64,000 bases of DNA from Streptomyces vilmorinianum (GTDB taxonomy: Bacteria > Actinomycetota > Actinomycetes > Streptomycetales > Streptomycetaceae), in the NCBI RefSeq assembly GCF_005517195.1, contig NZ_CP040244.1, forward strand, positions 6,218,001-6,282,000, in the 5' to 3' direction. Position numbers and translations under genes: made by a program. The notes under the pieces were generated by a model. That model saw nothing but the letters and a program-made list of their open reading frames with translations. It did no database searches and was not told the DNA's origin. Shown here one piece after another: positions 3,376 to 10,899 of this stretch (positions are counted from its first letter, which is position 1; every line of letters starts with the position of its first letter).

Positions 3376-4194
3376 TCACCGGCGGCAGACGAGGATGCCG
3401 CCAAGGCAGGTGATCTCGTAGGCGCCATTGCGGGCGATGTCGTCGGCGACGCGGGCCCGGGCCCGGTCGATGGTCGCGTCGAAGGGCACGTCGTGCTGGT
3501 CTGCCCAGGCTCGATACGAGGCCATGTGGGCGATGACGGGGTCGGGGTCGCGGACGGTGATGGTCCCTGGCAGTTCGACGACCTCGACCTGCCTGAACTC
3601 CTCGCCGAGGAAGGCCGGGGCTTTCTCCAGGGAGAAGCGGGCGCTGAGCGAGATTCGGGCCGGGCCGCGCTCGACACCGAGGACGTCGCCGGCGGCCCGC
3701 TGCCAGAGGTCGTCGAGTTCGGCCTTGTCGCGGTCGCTGTTGGTGGAGGCGACCACCAGCCCGTCACGGGCCACGACCCGAGCCAGTTCCCTGACTGCCT
3801 GGGAGATGTCGGGCACGTGGTAGAGCATGTGGAGCGCGAGAGCGGCGTCGACACTCCCCGCCGCCAGCGGCAGCCTCATCGTGTCTGCCACGGCGACCGG
3901 GCCGGGGACGCCGGCGAGGATGCCGGGCGCGATGTCGAGGCCGAGCAGGGACAGGTCCGGGCGGTCCTGATGGAGCCTCTGGATGAACTTGCCGTTGCCA
4001 CAACCGATGTCGACAACGCGCCCGCGTACGTCCCCCAGCCGCTCGGCGACGAGGCCGGGAAGGTCGTACCGGGGTGTCTGCCACTGGTAGAGCGACTGCC
4101 GGGCGGCCAGGTCCCGGTCCCCGTTGTAGGCGCTGCCCGCCAGTCGGGTCCGGTCGGTGACGGCGGCGTCGTGGGCGGCGGAAAGGTCGGTCAC
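3376..4194 (-). CDS. Class I SAM-dependent methyltransferase (Methyltransf_11 type)
   Basis: 272 aa. The SAM-binding motif I is VVDIGCGNGKF (~residue 65), followed by LLGLDIAPG (motif with acidic residue binding the ribose), then ADTMRLPLAAGSVDAALALHMLYHVPD, the motif II/III region typical of small-molecule or tRNA methyltransferases of the UbiE/type-11 group. The substrate cannot be told. The GTG start overlaps the TGA of the upstream XRE regulator (GTGA, 4191-4194), indicating translational coupling; the two probably share one transcript from the divergent promoter near 5528-5632. Confidence 0.82.
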   Translation of the reverse strand: MTDLSAAHDAAVTDRTRLAGSAYNGDRDLAARQSLYQWQTPRYDLPGLVAERLGDVRGRVVDIGCGNGKFIQRLHQDRPDLSLLGLDIAPGILAGVPGPVAVADTMRLPLAAGSVDAALALHMLYHVPDISQAVRELARVVARDGLVVASTNSDRDKAELDDLWQRAAGDVLGVERGPARISLSARFSLEKAPAFLGEEFRQVEVVELPGTITVRDPDPVIAHMASYRAWADQHDVPFDATIDRARARVADDIARNGAYEITCLGGILVCRR

Positions 4195-5528
4195 GTCGGC
4201 AACTCCGGAGGGTGGGCTGCGGGCAGGGACGCACGGACGGCCGTGTGCTGGAGTCGTTCGCACAGGTGCACCGCCTGCGCGGCTCCACCGTACTGCGGCT
4301 CTTCCAGCTCCCGCCCGAGAACGGTGAGCCGACGCACGATACTGGCCGACATGCGCTCCGGCGAGGACCCGAGGACGAAGCCGAGCATCTCTTCCGTGCC
4401 ATCCAGGTCGCCCAGGAGCAGGTGCCCGCGGGCGAGGTCGAGGTGCGCGGCGAACAGGTCACCGACCGACTGATCGTCTCCGTCCGCGCTGCGATAGAGG
4501 CGGATCGCCGTCTCCGCGCTGACGATGGCCCGCTGGACGTGCTCCTGCCCGCCCACGGCCAAGAGGGTCGTTCCGGCGTACGCGAACTGCTTGGCTGCGG
4601 GGAAGTCGAAGACTCCCAGTACCTCGTCCCCACCCGAGATCGCCTCGCGCGATCGTTCGGCATCCGACAGGGCAGCGAGCGCACCTGCCGAGTCGCCGAC
4701 TATCGCCAACGCCCGCGCCTCCAGGCTCGCCAGCCGTGCGCCGATGCTGCCGCTCGCCCTGTGCCGACGCCCGACCTGGGCCAGCCGGGCCGCCTGCTCG
4801 TACCGCCCGGTCCAGTACGCGATCAACGACTCCACGGCCCGTACCCAGGCCAGCATCCCCTCGTGCCCAGCCGCTTCGGCACAAGCGCGTGCCGTACGGG
4901 CATGGGTGGCGGCGGAGTCGTAGTCGCCGAGGTCGAGGCAGACGTGCGCGGACAGGCCGCAGAGGCGAGCAGCGGAGAGGTAGAGGTCGGTGGTCTGCCG
5001 GGGGTGCTGGCGCCCGCGCAGTAGCTCGAAGGCCCCGTCCCGTAACCGCCTGATCTCGACGTACTGCTCCATCAACGGGTGGCTGACGTACGTACGGGCG
5101 AGCCGGCCGACGTCTGCCTCCAGCTGCTCCACCACGAACTCGTCGGTGTTCCGCTGCGCAATGAACCGGGCGAACTCGGCCGACCGCACAGCGTCCTCAG
5201 AGAGCTGGTCTCCACGGACGAGAGTGTCTTCGGATGGCAGCACCGACGGCACGATCTCGACCTTGGCGGCGTCGGCCTCGTCCCGCTGCCCCTTGCTGAC
5301 GGCAACAGCCTGGTCGAGCACGGCGACATCGACACCGAAGACCTGCGCCAGGTACTTCCGGGCGTAAGGAACGGGAACTCGCGCTTCGCGCTCGTACCGC
5401 CCGATCTCCTTGCCGGTCTTCGCGGAACGCCCCTCCAGGGCGTTGTACTCGTCGGCAACCCTCTGCTGGCTCCAGCCGCGCTCGGTACGCAGCCGGACGA
5501 GCAAGACGCCGATCCCGGTGTCGCCCAT
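4191..5528 (-). CDS. XRE-family transcriptional regulator with TPR-like C-terminal domain
   Basis: 445 aa from the ATG reading MGDTGIGVLL, with GGGGGACGG as ribosome site. Residues ~5-70 form an HTH_3 domain (LLVRLRTERGWSQQRVADEY ... GKEIGRYEREARVP). The remaining ~370 aa are repeated helical hairpins rich in Ala/Leu/Arg (e.g. CLDLGDYDSAATHARTARAC, YWTGRYEQAARLAQ), the TPR-like arrangement seen in Streptomyces XRE regulators that sense peptides or small molecules. It is divergent from the ATP-binding/aaRS-like/ASCH operon, and four 12-bp direct repeats lie between them, so it may control both sides. It is translationally coupled to the methyltransferase. Confidence 0.82.
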   Translation of the reverse strand: MGDTGIGVLLVRLRTERGWSQQRVADEYNALEGRSAKTGKEIGRYEREARVPVPYARKYLAQVFGVDVAVLDQAVAVSKGQRDEADAAKVEIVPSVLPSEDTLVRGDQLSEDAVRSAEFARFIAQRNTDEFVVEQLEADVGRLARTYVSHPLMEQYVEIRRLRDGAFELLRGRQHPRQTTDLYLSAARLCGLSAHVCLDLGDYDSAATHARTARACAEAAGHEGMLAWVRAVESLIAYWTGRYEQAARLAQVGRRHRASGSIGARLASLEARALAIVGDSAGALAALSDAERSREAISGGDEVLGVFDFPAAKQFAYAGTTLLAVGGQEHVQRAIVSAETAIRLYRSADGDDQSVGDLFAAHLDLARGHLLLGDLDGTEEMLGFVLGSSPERMSASIVRRLTVLGRELEEPQYGGAAQAVHLCERLQHTAVRASLPAAHPPELPT

Positions 5529-5554
5529 GCCGTCCCCCAGGAACACGTGACCTC

Positions 5555-5602
5555 TGGCCCCCATAGTGGCCCCCGTCTTGGCCCCCACGCTGGCTCCCGA
5601 CC
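5555..5602. repeat. Four 12-bp direct repeats in a divergent promoter region
   Basis: Consecutive 12-bp units tggcccccatag, tggcccccgtct, tggcccccacgc and tggctcccgacc occupy 5555-5602, sharing the core TGGCCCCC. They sit in the 104-bp gap between the XRE regulator start (5528) and the ATP-binding protein start (5633). Regular spacing near one helical turn makes them candidate operator sites. Confidence 0.6.
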
Positions 5603-5632
5603 CAAATGAGTTAAGTCGCTTTGCTGTTGACC

Positions 5633-6136
5633 ATGGCAAGCAGACTCACCAACGAGGCGACCGACGCCGCCCCGGACCTCCTTCCGGGCACGGGCCGGCA
5701 CCGCACCATGCTCTTCCCCCGCCGTCGGACCACGCCGCGTACTGCTCGCGACTTCGTCGCCGCCACGCTGACCGAATGGGGTGAGACGAGCCGCCTCGAC
5801 GACATGCGGTTGTGCACCTCGGAACTCGTCACCAACGCCGTGCTGCACGGGGTGCCCGTAGGCCGACTGGTCCTGGTACGGGTCGAGTTCCTCGACGCGG
5901 AGCTGCGGATCGAAGTCCATGACAGCAGCGAGAACAGGCCGACACTGCGGATTCCTGAGGAGTCCGCCGTCGACGGTCGCGGTCTGCTGATCGTTGCCGC
6001 GACCGCCGACAGCTGGGGCGTGAAGGAGCGGACGGGCCCCGGAAAGTGCGTCTGGGCCGCATTCGACCGTGCCAAGAACGGGGCCGCTCCCCTGCCGCCC
6101 CACACCACCGGCCCCCACCAGGGAGGCACCACATGA
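5633..6136 (+). CDS. ATP-binding protein (HATPase_c, RsbW-like)
   Basis: 167 aa. A GHKL ATPase domain fills most of the protein: N-box ELVTNAVLHG (~residue 65), G1-like HDSSENRP, and G2 DGRGLLIVAATAD. Streptomyces encode many such stand-alone RsbW-like proteins, thought to act as anti-sigma factors or serine kinases; partners are usually unknown. The N-terminal MLFPRRRTTPRTARDF segment is typical of the group. ATG at 5633 is chosen; TTG or ATG alternatives nearby are possible. Its TGA overlaps the ATG of the next gene (ATGA, 6133-6136), so the gene is the first of a coupled three-gene operon on the island. Confidence 0.78.
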   Translation: MASRLTNEATDAAPDLLPGTGRHRTMLFPRRRTTPRTARDFVAATLTEWGETSRLDDMRLCTSELVTNAVLHGVPVGRLVLVRVEFLDAELRIEVHDSSENRPTLRIPEESAVDGRGLLIVAATADSWGVKERTGPGKCVWAAFDRAKNGAAPLPPHTTGPHQGGTT

Positions 6137-7249
6137 CCACCCACCCCGTCTCGCCGAACACCGTCCTCGCCAACGCCCTCCACCACGCCGAGGACGTCCT
6201 GACCCCGCGCATCCTGGCTGCCCCACCCGAGCGGATCGTGCTGGTCGTAGGCACCCAGATCAACGGTGCCCCGCACATCGGCACCTCGCTCGTGCAGTCC
6301 CTGGCCTTCGCCATGGCCGCCCGGCTGCGCGACCGCTTCGGCCTCCCCACCGAGGTGCTCTTCAGCGCCCTCGACAACGCCCCGTACGAGCTGGCGACCG
6401 ACCCGGCCAACGGCAACCGCTACCAGCGCGCCTACGCCCAGGCCCTCGGCGAGCAGGCCGTGCTCGACCTCGTCACCGCCCTCTACCAGCCCCTCTTCAC
6501 CGCCCTGTCCAGGCGCCTGGGCATCCCGCACCGCATCGAGACGTACACCCAGCAGCAGGCCGGCGAGCACTACCGCCGCACCTGGCTCCGCCTGCTCCCC
6601 CGCGTTGACGCCGCCCGCTGGTGGCTCGCCCCCTCCACCGGCACTCCTCACCTCCGCGTCCCCTGCCCTCACCCCGACTGTGGCTGGGCTGAGAAGCACG
6701 CCGAACGCACCCGGGTCCGCCTCACCGGGCCCGAGTCGGCGGTGGTCTCCGCCGTCTGCCTCCACCACGGCCCGCACGAGGCCGCGATCACGCCTACCGC
6801 CGGCGCGTACCTGGACCTTGGCCACGCTGTACCGCAACCTGGTCAAGGAACTCGCCCTGACCAGCCCCATCGGCACCCTGCACGTCATGGTCAAGGGCGG
6901 CGACTGGGTCTTCGGCTCCCACCTCGTCGACGAGGCCCTCCAGGCCGTGGGCCTCACGCGCACCCAGCTCCCGGCCCGCCTGTTCTGCCCCCAGGTCGTC
7001 ACCGACACCGGCGCCAAGCTGTCGAAATCCCTCATACGAGAAGGCCGTGCCCCCTTGCCCGAGGGCGCCGCCCCTTGGATGCTCGACACCCGGCAGTGGC
7101 CCGGCACTGTCACCGAGTACGCCGACCAGCTGCTCGCCATGGCCGAGACCCTGCTCTCCGACCCCCGCCACTTCTTCCGCTCGTACTCGGCCGCCGAGAT
7201 CGGCCGCCTGATCACCGCACCGTCCCCCAGGAGCGTTCCCTCCCGATGA
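6133..7249 (+). pseudogene. Class I aminoacyl-tRNA synthetase-like protein, frameshifted
   Basis: The first frame gives ~230 aa containing a nucleotide-binding signature GAPHIGT (the HIGH motif) and a CPHPDCGW...C...H zinc-knuckle-like stretch. An extra T at 6818-6819 shifts the frame; the second frame resumes at LATLYRNLVKE and carries KLSKSL (the KMSKS motif) near the end. Joined, the protein is about 370 aa, shorter than a housekeeping synthetase, with no recognisable anticodon-binding domain. Amino acid specificity is not evident. It is coupled to the ATP-binding gene before it and the ASCH gene after it (ATGA overlaps at both ends). The indel may be real decay or a sequence error; other island genes are also broken. 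Confidence 0.65.
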
Positions 7250-7599
7250 CCGACCGCACCGCCCGCGTCCGCGAGCTCAACCTCTACCGCCAGTACTTCG
7301 AGCTCGTCGCCGCGGGCACCAAGACCATCGAGGTGCGGGTCAAGTACCCGCACCTCGCGGACCTCGCCGCCGGCGACACCATCCGCTTCCGCATCAAGGG
7401 CACCGACGAGACTTGCGACGTCGAGGTCCTCCGCGTCACCGAGTACCCCGACTTCGAAGCCCTCCTGGACGGCGAGGGCCTCTCCAACGTCAACCCGACC
7501 GCCACCCGCGACCAGCAGCTCGCCAACATCCGCACGATCTACGGCCCCGAGAAGGAGGCCCTCGGAGCCCTCGCCATCGAGATGAAGCGCATGGCCTGA
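7246..7599 (+). CDS. ASCH domain protein
   Basis: 117 aa, essentially a single ASCH domain: LYRQYFELVAAGTKTIEVRV, then YPHLADLAAGDTIRFRI and a TCDVEVLRVTEYPDFEALL strand-helix unit. ASCH domains share the PUA-like beta-barrel and are proposed to bind RNA; some hydrolyse N4-acetylcytidine. The ATG overlaps the TGA of the aaRS-like gene (7246-7249). Coupling to a synthetase-like gene points to an RNA-related role, which is inference. Intact, with no sign of truncation. Confidence 0.82.
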   Translation: MTDRTARVRELNLYRQYFELVAAGTKTIEVRVKYPHLADLAAGDTIRFRIKGTDETCDVEVLRVTEYPDFEALLDGEGLSNVNPTATRDQQLANIRTIYGPEKEALGALAIEMKRMA

Positions 7600-7701: not shown

Positions 7702-8322
7702 GTGACCAGTTCAGTTCCCTGGAAGGATCGTCTGTCCACCGGTACGGAAGCGGCTCAGGACGACGTGGTGAGCTGGTACCAGAGCACGCGCGAGGGCAAG
7801 GCATACGTGCCCACGATGATCTGGGGCACGCTCCAGACCCAGGCGTACGCCACCGTGATCCTCGGCCAGGTCGTCGACTTCCTCGGCATCCCGAACGACG
7901 TGCCGGCCGGAGTCGCCAAGCGCATGCAACGGCAGCAGGTGCTGTACGACGGCGAGCACCACTACGACGTCGTCCTCGGGGAGCAGGCTCTCTACACGAA
8001 TATCGGTGGACCCAAGGTCATGCGAGAACAGATCGAGCGCCTCCAGCAAGAACTCGGCCTGGCTTCCCTCACACTCGGGATCCTTCCCTCCACCGCACGG
8101 GTGGACCTGTTCCCCGTCCACGCGTTCAACATCTACGGCGATGGCGACCGGGCCCACGTCGAACTCGTCTCCTCCTCCGTGGACATCACGGAACAGAGCG
8201 AACTCGACCTCTACAACAAAGCCTTCAGCGCGCTGAGCAGTGCGGCATGGTACGGCGACGCCGCCGAGGGGCTCCTGAAGAAGGCCCACTCCTTCTGGAC
8301 CAACACCCCGCTCCGACTGTAG
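7702..8322 (+). CDS. DUF5753 protein lacking the usual HTH domain
   Basis: 206 aa from a GTG preceded by AAGGGGA. The sequence matches the C-terminal DUF5753 domain: a Trp/Tyr lead (VVSWYQSTREGKAYVP), TLQTQAYATVIL, RMQRQQVLYDGEHHYDVVLGEQALY, and a terminal NKAFSALSSAAWYGD. In most Streptomyces this domain follows an N-terminal XRE helix-turn-helix in regulators of ~280 aa; here no HTH is encoded in the protein or in the 100 bp before it. It may be a truncated regulator or a stand-alone partner. Confidence 0.75.
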   Translation: MTSSVPWKDRLSTGTEAAQDDVVSWYQSTREGKAYVPTMIWGTLQTQAYATVILGQVVDFLGIPNDVPAGVAKRMQRQQVLYDGEHHYDVVLGEQALYTNIGGPKVMREQIERLQQELGLASLTLGILPSTARVDLFPVHAFNIYGDGDRAHVELVSSSVDITEQSELDLYNKAFSALSSAAWYGDAAEGLLKKAHSFWTNTPLRL

Positions 8323-8401: not shown

Positions 8402-8496
8402 GCAACCAAAACCTCGGCGGCAGCCTCGCCTCCCAAGCCAGTGCTGACGAGGCCATCGCCCTCATGCCCGACAATCCGCCCGACGAAGGGAACCCA

Positions 8497-8994
8497 GTGG
8501 CCCAGCAGGCCGACGACCAGCCGAAGGCCCTCAAGCCGGCGCTCGAATCCATGACCCTGCTGGTCGCCGCCGTCATCGTCCACGACAAGGCCACCAACCG
8601 CGTCGTCCTCCTCCAGCGCAGCGAGAACGCCAAGTTCGCCCAGGGGATGTGGGACCTGCCCGTCGGCAAGAGTGAACATGGCGAGCCGATCACCGAGACC
8701 GCTGTCCGCGAGCTCTACGAGGAGACCGGCCTCACTGTGAAGCCCGAGTCCCTCAAGGTCGCCCACATCATCCACGGCGCCTGGGGCGTCGAGGCCCCCA
8801 ACGGCTTCCTCACCGTCGTCTTCGCCGCCCACGAATGGACCGGCGAACCCGAAAACCGCGACCCCCGCAAGCACTCCCAGGTCCGCTGGGTCGACACCGG
8901 CGCCATCCCTGACACCTTCGTCGACACCACCGCCAGCGCCCTCCACCGCTACCTCGCAGCTGGACCCCAGGTGTCCCTAGAGGGGTGGGCGTAG
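8497..8994 (+). CDS. NUDIX hydrolase
   Basis: 165 aa from a GTG with a GAAGGGA ribosome site; an ATG at 8464 in frame is a weaker alternative. The Nudix box is complete: G-x5-E-x7-R-E-x2-E-E-x-G, read as GKSEHGEP followed by ITETAVRELYEETGL. The domain spans most of the protein, starting with the beta-strand LLVAAVIVHDKATNRVVLLQ. Nudix enzymes hydrolyse nucleoside diphosphates linked to other groups; the substrate cannot be inferred. The gene follows the 32-bp internal repeat and ends 83 bp before the CD-NTase start. Confidence 0.85.
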   Translation: MAQQADDQPKALKPALESMTLLVAAVIVHDKATNRVVLLQRSENAKFAQGMWDLPVGKSEHGEPITETAVRELYEETGLTVKPESLKVAHIIHGAWGVEAPNGFLTVVFAAHEWTGEPENRDPRKHSQVRWVDTGAIPDTFVDTTASALHRYLAAGPQVSLEGWA

Positions 8995-9077
8995 CACCTG
9001 CTGGTCTCGCCGAGACCCCATCCATTTGTCAGTGGCGCCCTCTACGCTCATTCCTCCAGCACGAGCAAGGGGGGTCC

Positions 9078-9952
9078 TTGAGCACGGCGAGCAGGTTCGA
9101 CAAATTTCTGAAGAACATCAAGGTGACAGACGATCACCGCGCAGCTGCACTGACCAGCGTGAACGCCATAGCCCGCAAACTGCAAGGGCACTACAGCAAC
9201 GCGCCGTACACAGATGCCTGGCGGATGGTGATCGGCTCTTACGGGAAGGGCACTGCGGTACGCCCACCAAGGGATGTCGACGTCCTGTTCTTCATGCCCG
9301 TCCACGAGTACAACCGATACACCGGGTACACGCACAACGGGCAGTCGGCACTCCTGCAAGACATCCGCCGCCTCCTCCTGCAGCGCTACCCGCGGACCGA
9401 AATCGGCGGCGATGGCCAGGTCGTAGTCGTCGACTTCGCCACCGGACACAAAGTAGAGGTCCTGCCCGGCTGGCATCGGCGAGGCGGCGGGATGATTGTG
9501 CCCAACACCCACGACGGGGCAGCTGGCAGCACGTCGACCACAACGCGGAGATCGCCTTCGTCGCCGATTCCGACGCCAAGACCAACGGCAACACCCGCAA
9601 TCTCATCCAGATGATGAAGGTGTGGCAGACCCATTGCTCGGTCCCCATCAAGTCGCTGGTCCTGGAACTTCGAAGCGTGGAGTTCCTGAAGAGCTGGGAG
9701 CACGCCCAGTCGTCCACGACCTACTACGACTGGATGGTGCGGGACTTCTTCGCCGAGCTCATCAAGAAGGCCAACTCCTGGCACACGATCCCCGGCACCA
9801 GTGAGAAGAAGCAGTACGGTGACACCTGGCTGAGCAAGGCACAGAGCGCCCACGGACGGGCGATCAAGGCGTGTGAGTACGAGCTGGCCGGCAAGCAGCT
9901 CAGCGCCGCAACGGAGTGGCGCAAGATTTTCGGGGGTCAGTATGAGTTCTAG
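9078..9952 (+). pseudogene. CD-NTase-like (SMODS) nucleotidyltransferase, frameshifted
   Basis: The TTG start follows AAGGGGGG. The first frame has the CD-NTase catalytic core GSYGKGTAVRPPRDVDVLF (GS motif and DxD metal site) and a later acidic strand VVVVDFATGHKVEVLP. At 9513-9518 one G appears missing from a G tract; the next frame continues SWQHVDHNAEIAFVADSD and the helical C-terminal OAS1-C-like part to QYEF. CD-NTases make cyclic nucleotides that trigger CBASS effectors. The downstream SLATT gene overlaps its stop by 11 bp. With the frameshift the product would end after ~175 aa, with the core but no thumb, so function is doubtful. Confidence 0.75.
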
Positions 9953-10503
9953 CCCGAGCACCGGGCACTCGGCCAACGTCCAGTCCATCCGGGAAGCCTT
10001 CGGCCGTGTCGTCTACTCACACAAGACCCACGAGAAGGCCCGGGAGCTGGAGGCCACCAAGGCTGAGCGGGCCAAGTGGGTCAACATCGTCCTGCTGACG
10101 CTGACCTCCGGGACACTACTGACCTCCGTGATCACGAACGAGCGGACCCTTCTCTATATCAGCAGCGTTGCGTCTGCCCTGGCACTCGCCTTCACCATCT
10201 TCCAGCTGAGCTTCAACCCGGAGAAGGCCGCTGAGCAGCACAGGGCCGCCGCCAAGGAACTCTGGTACGTCCGGGAGCTGTATCTGCACCTCCTCACCGA
10301 CATACAGACCGACCCGCAGGCCGTGGACATCCCGCGCCGCAGGGACGAGCTGCTCGAGAAGTTGAACCACATCTATCGGCTGGCGCCCGACACATCGAGC
10401 CGTGCCTACCGTGCAGCCCAGAGCCCTGCAGATCGACGAGGACATGACGTTCAGCAGCTCAGAGATCGACCGCTTCCTCCCGGAAGCACTTCGCACGTCC
10501 TGA
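9942..10503 (+). pseudogene. SLATT-domain two-TM effector-like protein, frameshifted near the C-terminus
   Basis: Starts at ATG 9942, overlapping the end of the CD-NTase by 11 bp. A basic N-terminal helix (SHKTHEKARELEATKAERAK) precedes two membrane segments, WVNIVLLTLTSGTLLTSVI and LLYISSVASALALAFTIF, then a cytosolic helical region (KELWYVRELYLHLLTDIQTD). This is the SLATT architecture, predicted to act as a membrane-perturbing effector with SMODS nucleotidyltransferases. An extra C at ~10425 diverts the frame; without it the protein ends ALQ-type IDEDMTFSSSEIDRFLPEAL at a TGA (10501). As it stands it reads on to 10649 with an unrelated tail, so it may still fold. Confidence 0.7.
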
Positions 10504-10545
10504 TGCCCACCCCTGGGTTCTGTCGGGCGAATCACGGGCGGGTTC

Positions 10546-10899
10546 CTATTCGGTGCGGCCGCGCCGGGGGACGTCTTTCCGGGGCTTCCGCGGGACGGGC
10601 ACCTTACGCTGCTCGGTACGCTGGGAACGCCGGTCGCGGTACCGCATAGCAGCCAGCCACAGGTCCCGTTTGTGCTCGGAATCCGACGGCATAAGCACCA
10701 ACGCGGTGAGGATGCCGAAGGCTGCGGTGATGGTGAGGACGACGGCGACGGCCACCGCCCACCATGGGGCCCCCGCAAAGGCGAGCACACCGATAGCGCC
10801 CCCGCCGCCGAGAACGGTCCCGCCCAGCATCCGTCGGCCGTTCGGACCTGACGGGGACGGCGTGGGGGACGCGGCCGGCTGATGAAGCGGTGAGCTCAT
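10546..10899 (-). CDS. Small two-TM membrane protein of unknown function
   Basis: 117 aa from an ATG preceded by a strong AAGGAGG. A Pro/Ser-rich N-terminus (~35 aa) is followed by two hydrophobic segments, GGTVLGGGGAIGVLAFAGA and WWAVAVAVVLTITAAFGIL, and a very basic C-terminal tail rich in Arg/Lys (RDRRSQRTEQRKVPVPRK). I do not recognise a family. Similar short basic-tailed membrane proteins occur on Streptomyces integrated elements. It is convergent with the SLATT gene and divergent from the next gene. Confidence 0.6.
   Translation of the reverse strand: MSSPLHQPAASPTPSPSGPNGRRMLGGTVLGGGGAIGVLAFAGAPWWAVAVAVVLTITAAFGILTALVLMPSDSEHKRDLWLAAMRYRDRRSQRTEQRKVPVPRKPRKDVPRRGRTE

Follow-up and report, generated by a model that had tools for sequence, protein, structure and literature searches.

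A class I lysyl-tRNA synthetase-like protein coupled to an ASCH protein on Streptomyces chromosomes, phages and plasmids

Results

We analyzed a 64,000-nt stretch of Streptomyces vilmorinianum DNA (assembly GCF_005517195.1, contig NZ_CP040244.1, positions 6,218,001 to 6,282,000), referred to here as the window. The locus under study comprises the following features:

3376-4194, minus strand, class I SAM methyltransferase (MT) with a GTG start (PF08241, E = 6.9e-16)
about 4191-5528, minus strand, NsdA-family XRE/TPR regulator (NF053720, E = 7.2e-32)
5529-5632, divergent intergenic region between the XRE and HATPase genes, assigned by position
5633-6136, plus strand, ATP-binding protein of the HATPase_c_2 type (RsbW-like), whose gene opens the plus-strand unit
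6133-7249, plus strand, aminoacyl-tRNA synthetase-like (aaRS-like) gene, with a class I LysRS-type catalytic domain and HIGH-like, zinc-knuckle and KMSKS-like motifs
7246-7599, plus strand, ASCH single-domain protein (PF04266, E = 1.1e-10)

A sequence-only reading of this DNA had described two divergent units with five genes in all, and both units were found as claimed. The stop of the XRE gene overlaps the GTG start of the MT gene as GTGA (4191-4194, minus strand), and ATGA overlaps form the HATPase/aaRS-like and aaRS-like/ASCH junctions on the plus strand, just as had been reported. The span given earlier, 4191-7599, takes in the XRE, HATPase, aaRS-like and ASCH genes but leaves most of the MT gene outside. 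From its position, the interval at 5529-5632 is presumed to be a regulatory region shared by both units. Since the HATPase, aaRS-like and ASCH genes are found together again in dozens of further genomes, their arrangement in the window is not a product of chance.

The aaRS-like gene had also been described as broken, and its reading frame does change at about 6818. The change is absent from all 11 close relatives compared and is therefore private to the window genome; it may have arisen by mutation in recent times or reflect an error of base calling. Most relatives, S. griseoluteus among them, carry intact copies of about 371 aa, several others are also frame-broken, and broken copies are common overall.

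Beyond the ASCH gene, the window encodes a DUF5753 protein that lacks an HTH domain (7702-8319) and a NUDIX hydrolase (8464-8991), and both recur 3′ of the aaRS-ASCH genes in close relatives (e.g., loci L026, L029, L032, and L059 of our set). These are followed by a CBASS-like CD-NTase (SMODS; 8985-9952) and a SLATT_4 2TM effector (9873-10649). The CD-NTase reading frame also shifts part-way, at roughly 9500-9570, making it a second broken frame within 3 kb of the first.

In Pfam and NCBIfam, the aaRS-like family had no match above cut-off. Within the main family the best match to PF01921, the class I LysRS (LysRS1) family, had an E-value of 0.05, and no member exceeded the Pfam cut-off of 27 bits; a distant Macrococcus relative also fell under it (E = 2.5e-5, 23.8 bits). 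An AlphaFold2 model of the protein was confident (pLDDT 90), and its top PDB match was class I LysRS 1IRX (Foldseek E = 1.6e-8), a globally moderate match (TM 0.54) with ~11% identity in the structural alignment. Foldseek matches also included MshC and the C-terminal domain of PyrN (PDB 9L8V), a biosynthetic aaRS-like protein, the latter match being weaker than that to LysRS1. A family profile that included the Macrococcus and Pantoea relatives aligned with actinobacterial LysRS1 over 326 columns (E = 9.8e-7); when these relatives were left out the match was weak (E = 0.0084), which counts against our preferred interpretation. Among the matches in a viral-model library was a lysine--tRNA ligase (375 aa) from a tailed virus of haloarchaea. 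PDB sequence searches with an aaRS-like fragment or profile as query gave chance matches only and were discarded.

The HIGH, KMSKS and zinc-knuckle motifs named in the sequence-only reading are all there (NGAPHIGT, AKLSKS, and CxxxxC...CxxH), set in a class I catalytic fold with a zinc-binding insert, and 36 intact relatives show little or no variation at the HIGH, KMSKS and zinc-ligand residues. The 371-aa protein shares with LysRS1 (PF01921; 1IRX) the Rossmann catalytic domain, both signatures and the zinc-binding insert, but the profile alignment stops at the catalytic core, and the protein lacks the anticodon-binding domain that LysRS1 possesses. Fold and profile thus indicate a diverged class I LysRS catalytic domain in which the zinc knuckle is kept and the anticodon-binding domain is absent. 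Because this protein has GGDW where LysRS1 has its GxDH motif, specificity for lysine seems doubtful. A plain truncated housekeeping synthetase, a concern raised beforehand, is not what we found: a full-length LysRS1 is encoded elsewhere in the genome (ORF of 589 codons, stop to stop), and dN/dS values of 0.11-0.29 show that the aaRS-like gene is under purifying selection.

We identified 104 loci with an aaRS-like match, which are loci rather than independent events, a few genomes being represented by two. ASCH lies directly 3′ of the aaRS-like gene in 84 of these, with an ATGA overlap in 78 of the 104, and shares one open frame with it in a further 12 (one of which, L071, follows a deletion in the aaRS). 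In two loci ASCH is found 541-603 nt away, and it is absent from six: two at contig ends, one with a truncated copy, and three (L199, L102, and L104) that form an ASCH-less clade, which counts against our preferred interpretation. Fusions occur at no fewer than two places in the tree (L062 and the L094-L101 group), a natural example being that of Nonomuraea guangzhouensis, and in the fused forms ASCH takes the C-terminal position that an anticodon-binding domain would occupy. The window ASCH scored 42.6 bits against PF04266 (cut-off 21.2), and its residues G24, K26, E29, and R31, part of a GxKxxExR-type motif, are kept in at least 95% of 94 sequences. PDB relatives of the ASCH protein are PF0469 and PH0355, and the ASCH part of a fused-protein model matches PH0355 with a TM of 0.89; the gene has a dN/dS of 0.11-0.19. 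The proposal of a small class I synthetase-like protein with an RNA-binding-type partner is borne out. To the question of whether homologues occur alone, the answer is mostly no, ASCH being adjacent nearly always, with one small biosynthetic clade as the exception.

ASCH domains of the same subfamily were also seen, by eye, in one frame with NUDIX-like sequence (L152, L153, L157, L158, L159, L161, and L162). Methyltransferase-like genes lie near these frames, in some cases with a P-loop kinase-like and a VanX-like gene as well, and no aaRS-like gene was seen beside them.

The remaining genes of the window proved to be changeable neighbors. XRE-MT pairs also occur in genomes without an aaRS match, and in a neighboring clade XRE-YdcF-WbqC takes their place; the two contexts are interleaved in the tree while aaRS-ASCH stays constant. 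At least four other regulator contexts accompany the pair. Different XRE regulators are found in other clades, or, 5′ of fused forms, an AAA_28 protein. The HATPase_c_2 gene, whose product is a probable regulator, is confined to certain contexts, among them phage Picard, which carries the same gene type. A 160-aa protein (phrog_12213), not encoded in the window, was found in 21 loci (e.g., L126:19385-19867) and lies 5′ of aaRS-ASCH where inspected. Of the recurrent actinobacterial association proposed earlier, the ASCH part held, whereas XRE and MT are swappable, and the single five-gene module did not survive the comparison. The conserved core is the aaRS-ASCH pair, and the five genes of the window are two pairs and one regulator.

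An aaRS-like match was present in 20 of 150 Streptomyces genomes (about one in eight), some being fragments, and in 3 of 397 genomes across the phylum. The gene is found on thirteen plasmid records, and the temperate phages Picard and Mojorita carry aaRS-ASCH beside a serine integrase. In Picard the order is XRE-DUF5753 (minus strand), HATPase, unknown, aaRS, ASCH, and serine integrase. On one viral contig the aaRS-like gene adjoins what by eye is a tape-measure-like gene. A search of the loci for integrase, FtsK and virion proteins flagged phage and a few plasmid records only, so that most chromosomal copies are without a mobile-element mark. That phages and plasmids carry it is in line with a mobile accessory role in general. 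Rfam detected no RNA family near the window locus, and tRNA genes are not a regular neighbor of aaRS-like loci.

Distant relatives occur in other surroundings. On two Macrococcus plasmids (L122:4134-8048 and L123:9506-13420), the aaRS-like gene lies beside two ATP-grasp ligases, one of which weakly resembles DdaF, and these genes are divergent from an HTH regulator and an MFS transporter. A 137-aa protein 3′ of the Macrococcus enzyme was considered as an ASCH candidate from its ASCH/PUA-like start, seen by eye, and rejected; it matched only PHROGs of unknown function. On a Pantoea plasmid (L121:11252-15032), genes for a methyltransferase, the aaRS-like protein, a LOG-family protein, an EamA exporter and a Ham1 pyrophosphatase overlap or adjoin in an apparent operon. 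The ASCH-less clade adjoins MFS, PALP, AurF, SbnB-like, OTC-like and methyltransferase genes; its biosynthetic-type actinobacterial cluster is seen at L199:38-8052, and parts of it recur in L102 and L104. All three contexts point towards amino-acid ligase chemistry.

Discussion

In the current study, we characterized a synthetase-like family and its ASCH partner, for which the label "undescribed" is only partly deserved. The curated cellular libraries do not describe a synthetase-like protein with such a partner, but PHROGs already names the two phage families (from the Streptomyces phages Picard and Mojorita): PHROG 35625, "tRNA synthetase", is the same family as the aaRS-like protein (E = 2.3e-194), and PHROG 19935, "RNA-binding protein", is the same family as the ASCH protein (E = 9.9e-45). 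These are named annotations, and the literature searched held no functional description of either. A search for ASCH together with synthetases returned no description of the pair, and neither the curated libraries nor the literature searched contained a class I LysRS-derived, catalytic-domain-only family coupled to ASCH. PyrN has a different partner domain from that of the aaRS-ASCH pair. LysU, PoxA, and LysX are class II-type LysRS paralogues. These three are the LysRS paralogues named in the passages found in a synthetase-paralogue review, which contain neither a class I LysRS paralogue nor ASCH (PMC9437257). MshC, GluQRS, and PoxA/EpmA, catalytic-domain-only paralogues that have taken on new acceptors, resemble the aaRS-like protein in that a synthetase core is apparently used without an anticodon domain (PMC9437257).

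ASCH domains are widespread, but few biological data exist for them (PMC9599836). The window protein shares the ASCH fold and a GxKxxExR-type motif with YqfB, ZmASCH, and PH0355. YqfB is an N4-acetylcytidine (ac4C) amidohydrolase with catalytic Lys21, Thr24, and Glu74 (PMC9599836); its Lys is kept in the window ASCH, and the Thr24 position appears to be Glu29, as judged by motif comparison. YqfB-type ASCH proteins hydrolyze free acyl-cytidines, and RNA was judged an unlikely substrate by the authors (PMC9599836), so an ASCH domain does not in itself imply RNA. ZmASCH, for its part, is a weak ssRNA nuclease (PMC5615036). Neither precedent fixes the role of ASCH in the pair.

Our leading interpretation, held tentatively and with slightly less than even confidence, is that the aaRS-like and ASCH proteins form a two-protein enzyme, a ligase that activates an amino acid and to which ASCH presents the acceptor. 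From the motifs we infer that the aaRS-like protein would convert an amino acid and ATP to an aminoacyl adenylate at the HIGH/KMSKS site, and that the amino acid is probably not specifically lysine. Given the absence of an anticodon-binding domain, the acceptor of the amino acid would not be a standard tRNA, and ASCH would most likely present or recognize this acceptor, which could be a nucleotide, a nucleoside, another small molecule or RNA. The pair would be the functional core of an accessory cassette that is under regulation and resides on both mobile and chromosomal DNA, with the HATPase and XRE genes as putative interchangeable regulators and MT as part of the separate XRE-MT pair. A bolder version, which we consider speculative and unlikely, is that ASCH replaced the anticodon-binding domain of LysRS, giving rise to an ASCH-guided aminoacyl transferase of phages and plasmids whose target might be an unusual RNA or modified nucleotide.

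The alternative that deserves most attention, although we think it somewhat unlikely, is an MshC-like small-molecule ligase of specialized metabolism, in which the aaRS-like enzyme would couple the amino acid, once activated, to a metabolite, with a nucleoside or another small acyl intermediate as the target of ASCH. The neighbors of the ASCH-less clade suggest as much, as do the paired ATP-grasp ligases and MFS exporter in Macrococcus, the apparent MT, LOG, EamA exporter and Ham1 operon in Pantoea, the fusion of related ASCH domains to NUDIX elsewhere in Streptomyces, and the Foldseek matches to MshC and PyrN. However, the common Streptomyces and phage cassettes have no recurrent exporter or biosynthetic genes beyond ASCH and regulators, the swappable MT and YdcF/WbqC genes aside. 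XRE and HATPase regulators are common across Streptomyces, which weakens another theory, namely that the pair is a phage or plasmid conflict gene altering host RNA or aminoacyl-tRNA pools in defense, in counter-defense or as a toxin-like module. Carriage by plasmids and, beside a serine integrase, by temperate phages is consistent with this, as are the frequent broken copies, one copy adjoining a gene annotated as a Pycsar effector, and the nearby CBASS-like genes in the window. Yet PADLOC gave no match for the aaRS-like, ASCH, XRE or HATPase proteins (a weak match of the methyltransferase to mad2 was taken as generic), and no defense partner recurred in the neighborhood clusters inspected. 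A defense role of the pair is possible, but we regard the conflict theory as improbable, and the RNA-directed defense suggested earlier gains nothing from PADLOC or from Rfam in this region.

The two remaining explanations fare worse. If the five genes were one module, with XRE and MT as working parts of the aaRS-ASCH system, the retention of the whole arrangement in about 30 Streptomyces loci would be accounted for; XRE-MT pairs in genomes lacking an aaRS match, and aaRS-ASCH in other contexts interleaved in the tree, make this very improbable. That the gene is a decaying copy of a housekeeping synthetase amid chance neighbors agrees with the broken frames in the window and several relatives, but is contradicted by the separate full-length LysRS1, by the mostly intact, selected copies of relatives and by an ASCH gene that stays in place across deep divergence, and is scarcely credible.

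The evolution of new aminoacyl chemistry can be followed in repurposed synthetase cores, and the tentative two-protein ligase could be considered in this light. Because Streptomyces that can be cultured carry the family, as do temperate phages of S. venezuelae ATCC 10712, its substrate is open to testing. Should the less likely scenario of an ASCH-guided aminoacyl transferase prove true, it would represent a new kind of non-translational aminoacylation.
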